This document shows, piece after piece, positions 37,015 to 50,835 of a stretch of 64,000 nucleotides of DNA; the first letter of the stretch is position 1; each line of letters begins with the position of its first letter. The position numbers and the translations under genes were made by a program. Under the pieces are notes generated by a model. It was not told where the DNA came from. It made no database searches and was given only the letters and a program-made list of their open reading frames with translations. This DNA is from Leucothrix arctica. GTDB lineage: Bacteria > Pseudomonadota > Gammaproteobacteria > Thiotrichales > Thiotrichaceae. The stretch is from the NCBI RefSeq assembly GCF_003172895.1, contig NZ_QGKL01000029.1, forward strand, positions 62,001-126,000. The letters run 5' to 3'.

Positions 37015-38145
37015 ATGATCATTCAAGAAATATACTACTTCGATGCACGAAGAAAAATTGAAATAAAGGAAATGAAATTTGACAAGTTTAATGCATTAGT
37101 TGGTGTATCAGGTGCTGGAAAAACGACAATAATTAGAGCTATTGATGCAATTTTAAATATTGTTTCTGGGAATTCCGAGCCTGCAGATAATTGGAAGATT
37201 TCCTTTCTGGATGATGATAATAATGAAATAGTTTGGGAAGGTATTTATTCAAAAAATATTGAATTTGACGACAAAGGTGATGATATTTCTGAACTTACTG
37301 CAGAGTCATTGTTTAAAAACGGTGAAGAAATAATTAATCGGCGCAAGAGTAGTACAATTTACAATGGAGAAAAACTACCGGTTATTGATAAATACAAAAG
37401 CTTAATGTATGTACTTAGAGATGACCCTTTAATAGCTCCTATCTATAAATCGCTTAAGTCAATAATAATAATCTTGAATAATTCTACTGGACATTCTCAT
37501 ACTGGTGCAACAGCAATATTTAATCCAAAGTCAATTGAAAACACCAAAAAAAGAATAAATAGCAATAAAGAAGACATCCTGAAAATATTAAATGAAGAAA
37601 AAGCGAACTGTAGAAAAAGAATTTTTTACATTCATAAATACAGATCAGATATGTTTGATGAATTTCTTTTTACTTACACAAACATTTTCCCTGATGTAGT
37701 AAATATAATTCCTGAAATAAAAAGATCAAGATCAAATAAAAGCCCTAGAGATACTTCAGCTCTATACATTAAACTTAAAATGAAGTCTGGAGCAATAGTC
37801 GAACAGAGCGAGATATCTTCGGGTATGTTTAAAACTATGATGATTTTATCAGAGCTTATGTTTGGAAATAAAAAATCCCCAATAATTATTGATGAAATTG
37901 AAAACAGTTTAGGTATTAACTGTTTATCTGAGATTGCTGCAGAGCTGAAATCCTCTGAAAATCAGATAATAATCACGACTCATCATCCGCAAGTTATCGA
38001 AGGTACAGACCCTAAGTTTTATAGAATAATTAAACGCGACGGGGGGGTTATTACTTCAGATCCTGCTGAGGAAATAAAAGGCTCATCAAGTCACCATGAT
38101 AGATTTATTCAGCTAATAAATAGCTCCCAATACAAAGGTTTTTGA
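37015..38145 (+). CDS. Small SMC/OLD-like AAA ATPase, putative defence component
   Basis: A 376-residue cytoplasmic ATPase of the AAA15/AAA21 (OLD/RecF-like) kind. Walker A is GVSGAGKTT at 30-38, the ABC-like signature is EISSGMFKT (about 266-273), Walker B is IIIDEIEN at 290-297, and a switch histidine occurs in TTHHPQVIEG (about 321-330). The middle (about 60-260) is lysine/isoleucine-rich and unrecognised. It has no TOPRIM domain of its own; the next gene supplies one. Base composition is far more AT-rich than on either side, a sign of transfer. No good ribosome site precedes the ATG. The family is clear; the defence role is inferred from the pairing. Confidence 0.78.
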   Translation: MIIQEIYYFDARRKIEIKEMKFDKFNALVGVSGAGKTTIIRAIDAILNIVSGNSEPADNWKISFLDDDNNEIVWEGIYSKNIEFDDKGDDISELTAESLFKNGEEIINRRKSSTIYNGEKLPVIDKYKSLMYVLRDDPLIAPIYKSLKSIIIILNNSTGHSHTGATAIFNPKSIENTKKRINSNKEDILKILNEEKANCRKRIFYIHKYRSDMFDEFLFTYTNIFPDVVNIIPEIKRSRSNKSPRDTSALYIKLKMKSGAIVEQSEISSGMFKTMMILSELMFGNKKSPIIIDEIENSLGINCLSEIAAELKSSENQIIITTHHPQVIEGTDPKFYRIIKRDGGVITSDPAEEIKGSSSHHDRFIQLINSSQYKGF

Positions 38146-38147
38146 TT

Positions 38148-38849
38148 GTGAAATCATACTTTTTATTTGAAGGCTCAAGCTCAGAACCTCAAGTATATCC
38201 ATACTGGCTTTCGGTTCTTTTACCCAATATTGATCAATACACCTCTGATACATATGAAAATTTCAAGAATTGTGACTCAGGATTTTTCTTCATTTCAGGA
38301 GAGGGATATCCACAAGTTTTACAACGAATTGAAAACTCAGTTAAAGATATTCAAGATATTGGCGACATTGATTATTTTTTTGTAGTAATTGATTGTGATG
38401 AATCAAATACTACTACTAGGGAGAATGAAATATTATCAACGATAAGTGATTATTTATTACCAGATAGGACACGTGTTATTCCAATAGTCCAAAATAGATG
38501 TTTTGAATCTATGCTTCTGGGTAATCAAAGGATAATACCTAGGCAAAGCACCCAACCTCCTCTTTCTCATTATATTAATTACTACGATACCAGCTCACAC
38601 GACCCTGAGTTAATGGGAAATTTTAATGATAGTTTCACTCATGCTCAATTTCATGCAGTCTATTTAAAAAAAGCAACAGTTGCTAAAAGAATTAGATACG
38701 CAAAGAATAATTGTGTAGGTGTCATGAATGAGCCCTACCTAAACTCTTTGATTTTAAGGTTTAAAGAACATGGTCATATAGACTCATTTGGTAGGTTTAT
38801 TTCTGCAGTAAACTCTATGAGAGAAAAGTTAGACTTACCTCACATCTAA
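38148..38849 (+). CDS. TOPRIM/RloB-like putative nuclease partner of the ATPase
   Basis: A 233-residue protein that I do not recognise by name. Three spaced blocks match the TOPRIM-like/RloB pattern: LFEGSSSEP (E8, E13), then VVIDCDESN (D82, D84), then NRCFESMLLGN (E120). These would be the metal-binding glutamate and DxD residues of a nuclease. The GTG at 38148 lies 2 bases after the ATPase stop with AAGG at 9 bases; TTG at 38142 is possible. It shares the AT-rich composition of its partner. Split ATPase plus TOPRIM pairs occur in anti-phage systems such as PARIS and AbiL-like modules; assignment to any of them is not established. Confidence 0.65.
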   Translation: MKSYFLFEGSSSEPQVYPYWLSVLLPNIDQYTSDTYENFKNCDSGFFFISGEGYPQVLQRIENSVKDIQDIGDIDYFFVVIDCDESNTTTRENEILSTISDYLLPDRTRVIPIVQNRCFESMLLGNQRIIPRQSTQPPLSHYINYYDTSSHDPELMGNFNDSFTHAQFHAVYLKKATVAKRIRYAKNNCVGVMNEPYLNSLILRFKEHGHIDSFGRFISAVNSMREKLDLPHI

Positions 38850-48320: not shown

Positions 48321-48569
48321 TCATTCAGTAGTAACACTCGCTCGTTGATTTAGGCGCTCCCAAAACTCATTACCTACAGCAACAGAAGGGCCAGAACTTA
48401 AGCCTTCAGCAACGCATGCTCAAGCTTTTCCTCAACAGCTCTCTGCTTATCAGCGCGGATCAATGCACTAATATAATCACTTGGGTTGTTGTAGTCAGAG
48501 TGACTCGCCTGCTCTTTTACAAATTTTTTAAGCTACCGGACAATGAAATATTTATAGTCGCCTTGGCAT
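48321..48569 (-). pseudogene. Decayed ParD-like antitoxin with two frameshifts
   Basis: The minus strand encodes a ParD/CC2985-type antitoxin in three frame segments. The ATG at 48569 is followed by a one-base loss; in the shifted frame the peptide reads KATINISLSGSLKKFVKEQ, then SDYISALIRADKQRAVEEK to HALLKA. There a TAA at 48400-48398 interrupts, and a second one-base shift restores SSGPSVAVGNEFWERLNQ to a TGA at 48321. The order and spacing match complete antitoxins of about 85 residues. No ParE-like toxin follows; the sulfotransferase ends 16 bases away. The remainder of the gap, 48570-48762, shows nothing I can name. Confidence 0.75.
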
Positions 48570-48762: not shown

Positions 48763-50835
48763 ATGGATTCGATTTTTATTAGTTATAGCCACCAAGATGA
48801 AAAATGGAAAGACCGTATCCAGAGCCACCTAACTGTGCTTGAAAAAAACGACAAGCTCACTATTTGGGATGATAGACAAATCGCACTCGGTGGTGACTGG
48901 CTAAACAATATTGAACAGTCGCTCGAAAAAGCTACGATTGCACTGTTGTTGGTAAGTCGCCACTTCTTAAACTCTGACTTTATCCGCAACAAAGAAATCC
49001 CTGAGTTATTACAACGTAGCGAGCAAGATGGCTTAAAAGTAATACCTGTAATGCTGACACCCTGTAGCTGGCAACAAGTTACTTGGCTATCAAAAATTCA
49101 GGGATACCCAAAAGACAATAAGCCGCTATCAGGTTTGACGGAACACCAGATTGATGAAGCACTGGCAGCACTCGGTAATCGTCTAGTCGAGACTCAACCA
49201 TCAACTCCCTCAAGCACAGCAGCAGCAGTGTATACACCAATCACGCCATCACATAACGTTTCTAGTACCTCTAATATAAATGCGAATGACAACGCTCAAC
49301 CCATTGTTGCTAACGACAGTGCCAACATCACCGTCAACAATAACCAAGGGATTTCCCTAGAAGAGTATGAAGCAGGGTTACTACGACAAGAAAAACGCTT
49401 GCGTGAAGAGTTTCGTAACAACACGGGAAGCCCGACAGAACTAAAACGTCTAAAAGCTCAATTAGATGCGGTCTCTGACAACCTCCTCAACCTACAAAGT
49501 AGCTATGAGGAATCTCAGAAACTCCTTCAAGAAGCTGATCAAGCACTGGAAATACTCAAAAACGAACTACCTGTCGCGCAAGTAAAAAAAGCACAAGCTC
49601 TATTGGCAAAGAATGATACAGGAGCAGCCAAAGAAGCATTTAATGATATCGTCGAAAAAGGCAGCCCCTCAATGGCATTGGCAGCCTATGAAAGCGGTAG
49701 ACTGGAAGAAAATGACATCAACTACGATAATGCAATGAAGCAATATAGCATCGCGGTTACGCTTGAGGATAGCAATCCAGACTATCTTTCAGCTGCGGGA
49801 ACGATGGCACGCACACTAGGTGACTACTCCACATCACGAAAATGGCTTGAGATTCTACTGAAATTACGAGAGCAAGCTGGCGGTAAAACAATAGATATTG
49901 CATATGCTCAACATGATTTAGCTTGGGTTTATGAAGATATGGGCGAATATAAAAAAGCAGAGACTTTATATAAGCGCTCAATCTTTATAAAAGAGAGCTC
50001 GATGGGAAAGAATCACCCGGAAGTGGCTACTACTTTGAATAACCTAGCTGGGTTATATCAGACACAAGGCGAGTACCTAAAAGCAGAACCAACCTTTCAA
50101 CGCGCACTTGATATCACAGAAAAGTCGATTGGAAAAGAAAACACAGACTTCGCAAGAACTTTAAATAACCTTGCTTTGCTTCACAAAGATCAAGGTTATT
50201 ATGAGAAAGCGCAACCACTCTTTCAACACAGCCTCAAAGTCTTTGAAAAGTCATTTGGTAAGGAACACCCAGATATCGCAGTAGCTTTAAGTAATCTCGC
50301 TCAGTTATATTGTGAGCAAGATAAGTATGAAAAAGCAGAGTCCCTCTTTAAGCGCTCTCTAAAGATAAGTGAGAAGTATTTCAACAAAGATCATCTGGAG
50401 ATAACAAAAACCCTAAATGGTCTTGCTGGCTTATATCATAATCAAGGCAAGTACATTAAGGCAGAGTCACTATTTCAACGCTCCCTTAAAATCTATGAGA
50501 GCTCTCTTGGTAAAGAGCACCACTATGTCACAGTCACTCTAAACAATCTTGCTTGGCTGTATCAAAACCAAGGCAAATATGAAAAATCGGAACAGCTCTT
50601 TCAACGCTGCCTTCAGACCAAGGAAAAGTCTCTAGGAAAAGAACACCCTTCTCTCGCTGTGACTTTAAACAACTTAGCCTTACTTTATGATAAACAGGGC
50701 AAGCTGGAGCTATCACTTGTCTACATTAAACGTGCAATCACTATTTTGGGGAAAAAGCTTCCTGTCACACACCCTCATTTGATGCACAGCAATCAAACCC
50801 TTAAGTTTCTCCAAGCCAAACTAGCCATCAAATAA
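48763..50835 (+). CDS. TIR-domain protein with kinesin-light-chain-type TPR repeats
   Basis: A 690-residue soluble protein. Residues 1-143 form a TIR domain starting MDSIFISYSHQDEKW, with SRHFLNSDFIRNKEIPELL at 65-83; E78 sits where NAD-cleaving TIR domains have their catalytic glutamate. A Ser/Thr/Asn-rich linker follows (145-195), then a coiled coil (about 200-275) and a helical region with irregular TPRs (about 275-395). Six regular 42-residue TPRs run from 396 to 647, with a degenerate seventh to the end. Bacterial TIR-TPR proteins may act as NAD-depleting defence or signalling proteins; that role here is inferred. It is monocistronic, with a strong terminator behind it. Confidence 0.85.
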   Translation: MDSIFISYSHQDEKWKDRIQSHLTVLEKNDKLTIWDDRQIALGGDWLNNIEQSLEKATIALLLVSRHFLNSDFIRNKEIPELLQRSEQDGLKVIPVMLTPCSWQQVTWLSKIQGYPKDNKPLSGLTEHQIDEALAALGNRLVETQPSTPSSTAAAVYTPITPSHNVSSTSNINANDNAQPIVANDSANITVNNNQGISLEEYEAGLLRQEKRLREEFRNNTGSPTELKRLKAQLDAVSDNLLNLQSSYEESQKLLQEADQALEILKNELPVAQVKKAQALLAKNDTGAAKEAFNDIVEKGSPSMALAAYESGRLEENDINYDNAMKQYSIAVTLEDSNPDYLSAAGTMARTLGDYSTSRKWLEILLKLREQAGGKTIDIAYAQHDLAWVYEDMGEYKKAETLYKRSIFIKESSMGKNHPEVATTLNNLAGLYQTQGEYLKAEPTFQRALDITEKSIGKENTDFARTLNNLALLHKDQGYYEKAQPLFQHSLKVFEKSFGKEHPDIAVALSNLAQLYCEQDKYEKAESLFKRSLKISEKYFNKDHLEITKTLNGLAGLYHNQGKYIKAESLFQRSLKIYESSLGKEHHYVTVTLNNLAWLYQNQGKYEKSEQLFQRCLQTKEKSLGKEHPSLAVTLNNLALLYDKQGKLELSLVYIKRAITILGKKLPVTHPHLMHSNQTLKFLQAKLAIK
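49948..50703 (+). repeat. Six 126-base tandem coding repeats (TPR)
   Basis: Each 42-codon unit encodes a variant of YxKAExLFxRSL followed by a GKEHPxxAxTLNNLAxLY block. The units are in exact register with no insertions between residues 396 and 647. The DNA copies have diverged, so the array is old rather than freshly amplified. Confidence 0.85.

Follow-up and report, generated by a model that had tools for sequence, protein, structure and literature searches.

A single open reading frame in the window, by which we mean the whole 64,000-nucleotide stretch of Leucothrix arctica DNA under analysis, encodes a protein of 690 amino acids in which a TIR domain is followed by a linker, coiled-coil-like helices, degenerate tetratricopeptide repeats (TPRs) and, finally, seven 42-residue TPRs of the kinesin light chain (KLC) type. 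As far as comparison of related sequences can tell, the gene is a chimera joining two modules that have been shuffled independently of each other, the TIR and the coiled-coil/TPR arm, and the fusion apparently arose through the exchange of parts among unrelated proteins. The product would seem to be an alarm protein acting on its own, familiar in general kind but unusual in build, and on balance we favor its operation as a cytoplasmic, NTPase-free, single-protein sensor-NADase, in which the binding of a cue by the TPRs would cluster the TIRs, NAD would be cleaved and growth would stop. The first-pass annotation of this DNA had proposed a single-protein TIR-TPR effector, a reading that is partly supported by the present analysis, and to which we add that both halves are modules of swapped origin.

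The reading frame begins with ATG and occupies exactly 48763..50835 on the + strand, as do all of its parts described below. The TIR domain (aa 1-142; 48763..49188) is matched by Pfam TIR_2 (PF13676) over aa 4-112 with an E value of 3.3e-15, and the C-terminal half by TPR_10 (6.4e-71), TPR_12 (2.9e-70) and a nephrocystin-3-type TPR; since each of these matches exceeds its Pfam cut-off, the architecture stands well past chance. An Asn-rich linker motif (aa 177-198; 49291..49356), which alignment reveals to be partly common to relatives of the arm, precedes the coiled-coil-like helices (aa 199-268; 49357..49566), the degenerate TPR-like helices (aa 269-377; 49567..49893), recognized from a TPR_16 match at aa 275-334 and low-confidence model helices, and the seven regular repeats (aa 378-671; 49894..50775). 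A TIR domain joined to a coiled coil and regular KLC TPRs had been described beforehand, and Pfam and the repeats uphold both ends of that description, whereas the coiled coil between them is plausible rather than proved: AlphaFold2 places helices at 199-219 and 224-268 in a low-confidence full-length model built without an alignment, and the heptad score of the 199-268 region was equalled by 6 of 500 shuffles. In that model the TIR fell below pLDDT 50 and the regular TPRs lay mostly at 70-94, and only the TPR part is relied upon. Pfam detected no NTPase, protease or nuclease domain in the 690-residue protein, nor was there any NB-ARC, NACHT or AAA match at E 0.01 that would indicate a central P-loop NTPase. 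A membrane segment is likewise absent between TIR and arm, the highest 15-residue Kyte-Doolittle mean within aa 120-200 being 0.39.

All of 15 related TIRs keep F5, S7, Y8, H10, D12, W35, D37, I40, G43, L63, S65, F68, S71 and E78. The last of these (codon 48994..48996), the presumed catalytic glutamate, sits in an SxxxxxE motif on the helix after the neighbor region of strand D, which is the glutamate's place in NAD-cleaving TIRs, as the first-pass annotation had it, and it is kept in 69 of the 76 distinct TIR sequences of a wider set. Among the seven exceptions, four (L077, L078, L079 and L083) carry a Glu one residue earlier, an offset that we read as an apparent alignment shift, while L026 is gapped nearby and L016 and L021 have Asp or Ile. 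In a profile alignment E78 falls on position 78 of the AbTir chain (7uwg_A), which would be AbTir residue 208 assuming a three-residue tag, the offset being taken from 7uxu, whose 134 observed residues are numbered 134-267; Glu208 is given as the catalytic residue of AbTir in the available text of PMC10022894. A structure prediction compared with known TIR NADases, the check that had been suggested for this protein, agrees with them: the TIR as modeled by AlphaFold2 from 15 sequences (mean pLDDT 88) matched the complex of AbTir with 3AD (Z 16.3, 2.0 A, 129 residues), SPARTA TIR-APAZ (Z 14.1-16.5) and SARM1 (Z 13.1-14.7). Foldseek assigned the model to the same structure group with modest TM-scores, TLR and plant TIRs ranking equally high. 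A match of predicted fold does not by itself prove NADase catalysis, and some TIRs of NADase-like fold are scaffolds. The closest PADLOC family is Thoeris ThsB (PDLC00420, 1.3e-28, aa 1-141), which is also the best PADLOC match for the TIRs of relatives with other C-termini. From its sequence and its modeled fold, the domain is a probable NAD-cutting immune domain.

The arm, for its part, consists of tandem 42-residue TPR_10/TPR_12 repeats of KLC-like sequence, with a mean pairwise identity of 46% in protein and 56% in DNA. Among solved structures its nearest relatives are the kinesin light chains (best E 7.6e-85), KLC1 being the closest; KLC1 and KLC2 have 42-residue TPRs that are 33-45% identical to those of the arm and form a cargo-peptide groove, but they are eukaryotic motor adaptors and bear no TIR. 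The groove of KLC TPRs binds cargo peptides, and these TPRs serve as adaptors. Asn at repeat position 8, which we take to be the KLC backbone-binding ladder, is present in five of the seven repeats. At the groove positions, which we assume from consensus-TPR work, variation between repeats is high: that of five helix-A sites was equalled by 84 of 20000 random site sets and that of a six-site groove set by 295 of 20000, the random sets not being matched for surface exposure. This variation fits a ligand-binding groove and supports one without proving it, and together with the likeness to the KLC groove it agrees with the earlier view of the arm as a sensor of a ligand or protein; that the arm is suited to binding peptides or proteins is supported at the level of sequence. 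A family of TPR proteins from the FxSxx-COOH system (NF040586) matched the TPR part only, below its curated NCBI cut-off (141.4 versus 300 bits).

Both modules occur in other company. Related TIRs, at 49-54% identity, are found on NB-ARC-TPR proteins, on FGE-sulfatase domains or alone: an NB-ARC-like NTPase with a TPR C-terminus follows the TIR at L035 (by Pfam) and at L036, L037 and L033 (by sequence similarity), an FGE-sulfatase C-terminus at L039 and L032 (Pfam) and L041 (by sequence), and only a charged helix at L038. Of the 63 genomes of the family, the arm (aa 177-376) turned up in 3, including that of the window, and the two other copies, 44% and 42% identical, begin with a signal-peptide-like stretch and lack a TIR. 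In the class sample it was matched in 7 of 369 genomes, the window's own again included, with the TIR-arm fusion in that genome only; these seven include a generic TPR lipoprotein (L058) and two loci with N-termini unreadable in frame (L054 and L055). N-terminally, L053 has a membrane-segment-like stretch and L059 a signal-peptide-like one; L056 is also membrane-segment-like at its N-terminus, only the end of the arm being matched, and L057 has no targeting part and ends in a PDZ-like region (PDZ_2, below its cut-off). No TIR was found at any of the nine arm loci searched. As the relatives of the arm carry targeting signals and no TIR, the TIR of the window gene stands in the place of a targeting signal.

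A direct TIR-TPR arrangement without a P-loop pattern was seen in 2 of 76 TIR open reading frames (window copies excluded, many of the frames being cut 500 residues past the TIR), a rough count since the crude pattern overlooked the NB-ARC of L003/L035. In both cases (L014 and L015) a hydrophobic, membrane-segment-like stretch lies between the two parts, by eye; L015, from the same genus, is a TIR-TM-TPR protein with ordinary TPRs by Pfam, and L014 is another, within the family. A housekeeping gene, the possibility that the first-pass annotation had set against its own reading, is rejected given the scarcity of the arm in family and class and the confinement of the fusion to its own genome. 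We also rejected a plasmid gene, with no arm match among 72,556 plasmid records, and a phage gene, the sole phage matches being three records of Wolbachia phages, by the TPR alone. Viral contigs yielded no relative of the arm and none of the single TIR sequence, and distant TIRs at 13 loci only with a TIR alignment as query. The literature search returned no paper describing a bacterial TIR-coiled coil-KLC-TPR protein; among the matches listed, the TIR-TPR literature was that of molluscs.

We envisage the N-terminal TIR as an NAD-cleaving enzyme that would be inactive while TIRs are apart, and the KLC-type TPR solenoid as a sensor whose concave groove would take up a peptide or a protein as its cue, the two being coupled by the linker and the coiled coil, which may hold or gather subunits. 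Cue binding would cluster the TIRs into composite active sites, and the resulting consumption of NAD would bring about growth arrest or cell death, conceivably as a defense against phage. A widely shuffled TIR module would, by this account, have been put on an arm that relatives bear behind a signal peptide or membrane segment. The mechanism is drawn by analogy with SpbK of Bacillus subtilis, a TIR antiphage protein in which, according to the available text of PMC12847820, a phage portal protein clusters the TIRs and triggers NAD cleavage; one may also compare it to a TIR-NLR that lacks its NTPase switch. Like SpbK, the window protein combines a sensor part with a TIR NADase, here a predicted one; unlike it, the TIR is not C-terminal and the sensor is a TPR arm, of a kind that the same available text does not describe (PMC12847820). 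In favor of the sensor-NADase reading are a TIR_2 domain accompanied by no NTPase, protease or nuclease, the conservation of E78 and its alignment with the AbTir catalytic Glu, the proximity of the model to AbTir, SPARTA and SARM1, ThsB as nearest PADLOC family, the KLC-like cargo-peptide groove with repeat variation peaking at groove positions, the patchy occurrence, the same TIR type on NB-ARC-TPR and FGE sensors, and the lack of a SIR2_2 partner; it is weakened in that fold similarity does not establish catalysis and that the gene lies in no defense island. Furthermore, the closest relatives that have the full arm are exported and TIR-less, so that the first role of the arm need not have been an immune one. 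More tentatively, we suggest that the protein may be a minimal, NTPase-free immune receptor and its own effector, the groove directly reading a short peptide motif and switching on the NADase, with an arm derived from exported or membrane coiled-coil/TPR proteins whose targeting signal was replaced by the TIR.

The TIR could instead turn NAD into cyclic or conjugated ADP-ribose that is read by a separate effector encoded elsewhere, the TPR arm still being the sensor. We regard this Thoeris-like scheme as unlikely. ThsB is the best match both of this TIR and of relatives with other C-termini, which speaks for it, but Pfam found no ThsA effector among the flanking genes, and no SIR2_2 domain was detected in the genome (controls matched in 2 of 14), the effector search having covered SIR2_2 and STALD, the latter without a match and with controls that matched nowhere either. 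The TIR of the window gene groups by sequence with that of Thoeris, but the gene differs in its fusion to a TPR arm and its want of an adjoining ThsA. It similarly resembles TIR-NB-ARC-TPR and TIR-STAND proteins in having a TIR at one end and TPRs at the other, and same-group TIRs occur on such proteins (L035-L037, L033), but it has no NTPase and its TPRs are long, regular and KLC-type. It is therefore outside the STAND/NLR group, having no NTPase, and outside Thoeris as a system, having no ThsA beside it.

Still less probable is a non-catalytic scaffold, in which the TIR would only contact other TIR proteins of the cell and the arm would recruit a client. The genome has eight TIR_2 reading frames, KLC TPRs are adaptors, and the fold is also matched by TLR- and MyD88-type TIRs, which signal through assembly; against this, the glutamate and the residues around it stay conserved however the architectures are shuffled, and a pure scaffold need not retain them. 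We give least weight to a role in recognizing kin or non-self, or in the regulated death of cells, in a multicellular bacterium instead of phage defense, acting by the same sensor-NADase mechanism, for which one may cite a Thiothrix eikelboomii genome in the GTDB family (L032/L040), the signal peptides of the arm's nearest relatives and the available text of PMC10907252, where such a role is proposed as an alternative for the conflict proteins that multicellular bacteria carry.

Returning to the sensor-NADase that we favor, its gene (GC 0.416, slightly under most neighbors) lies among ordinary metabolic genes, which by Pfam encode an FKBP isomerase, an unassigned protein and a sulfotransferase-like protein, then PhoX and a 5'-nucleotidase; no defense island was found in these flanks. 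The earlier description of the gene as alone is on weaker ground: a same-strand sulfotransferase-like gene lies about 460 bases upstream and phoX is convergent downstream. The toxin-antitoxin debris said to adjoin it found no support in Pfam: a frame-shifted, stop-ridden remnant at about 48340-48560 (-), just upstream, presumably resembles a ParD-type antitoxin by eye, but Pfam matched neither of its two pieces, even at E 1. In the empty-site comparison, the PhoX of same-genus G003 is 89% identical and no further DNA is shared on a 13.6 kb stretch, and hence no clean insertion site can be demonstrated; G006 likewise gave PhoX matches only. Some of the eight TIR_2 matches have CHAT, STAND, WD40, NACHT or FGE partners on sequence reading, a seemingly rich TIR repertoire for a single genome. 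By eye, these include proteins of 1447 aa with CHAT, NTPase and TPR parts (L110 1676-6016, -), of 1144 aa with NTPase and WD40 (L110 10114-13545, -) and of 934 aa with NACHT-like and FGE-like parts (L113 2485-5286, -).

Both TIR and TPR parts have a place in bacterial immunity, as a rule with a STAND NTPase between them. Should the window protein sense a cue and kill in the absence of such an NTPase, it would be a simple system tying ligand binding in a well-understood peptide groove to TIR clustering. The gene and its relatives also present, inside a single family of bacteria, one TIR group on several kinds of sensor, and a sensor arm that has switched from an exported to a cytoplasmic setting. 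That work on a TIR-plus-TPR protein exists is shown by PDB 9m0n/9umd, an 824 aa 'Tetratricopeptide repeat protein' whose N-terminal part is a TIR; the comparison was made by TIR and name alone, the match to the window protein is confined to the TIR, and no paper on this entry was found in our literature search.

Three further loci merit mention. On the Acaryochloris plasmid pMB06, typed as conjugative, NB-ARC, TIR and TPR are separate neighboring genes (L051 58-6856, +), a cluster like a split version of a single receptor. An exported relative of the arm (L049 881-2560, -) has near-identical repeats, with means of 72% in amino acids and 78% in DNA, one register-shifted row included, which suggests a recent repeat expansion. 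Lastly, a low-GC pair of genes elsewhere in the window (37015-38849, +; GC 0.31 and 0.33 versus about 0.45 around) encodes an AAA_21 ATPase with best PADLOC matches to PDC-M25A, AbiLi and AriA, followed by a 235 aa protein with a weak AbiLii match, and looks like an acquired AbiL-like defense pair.
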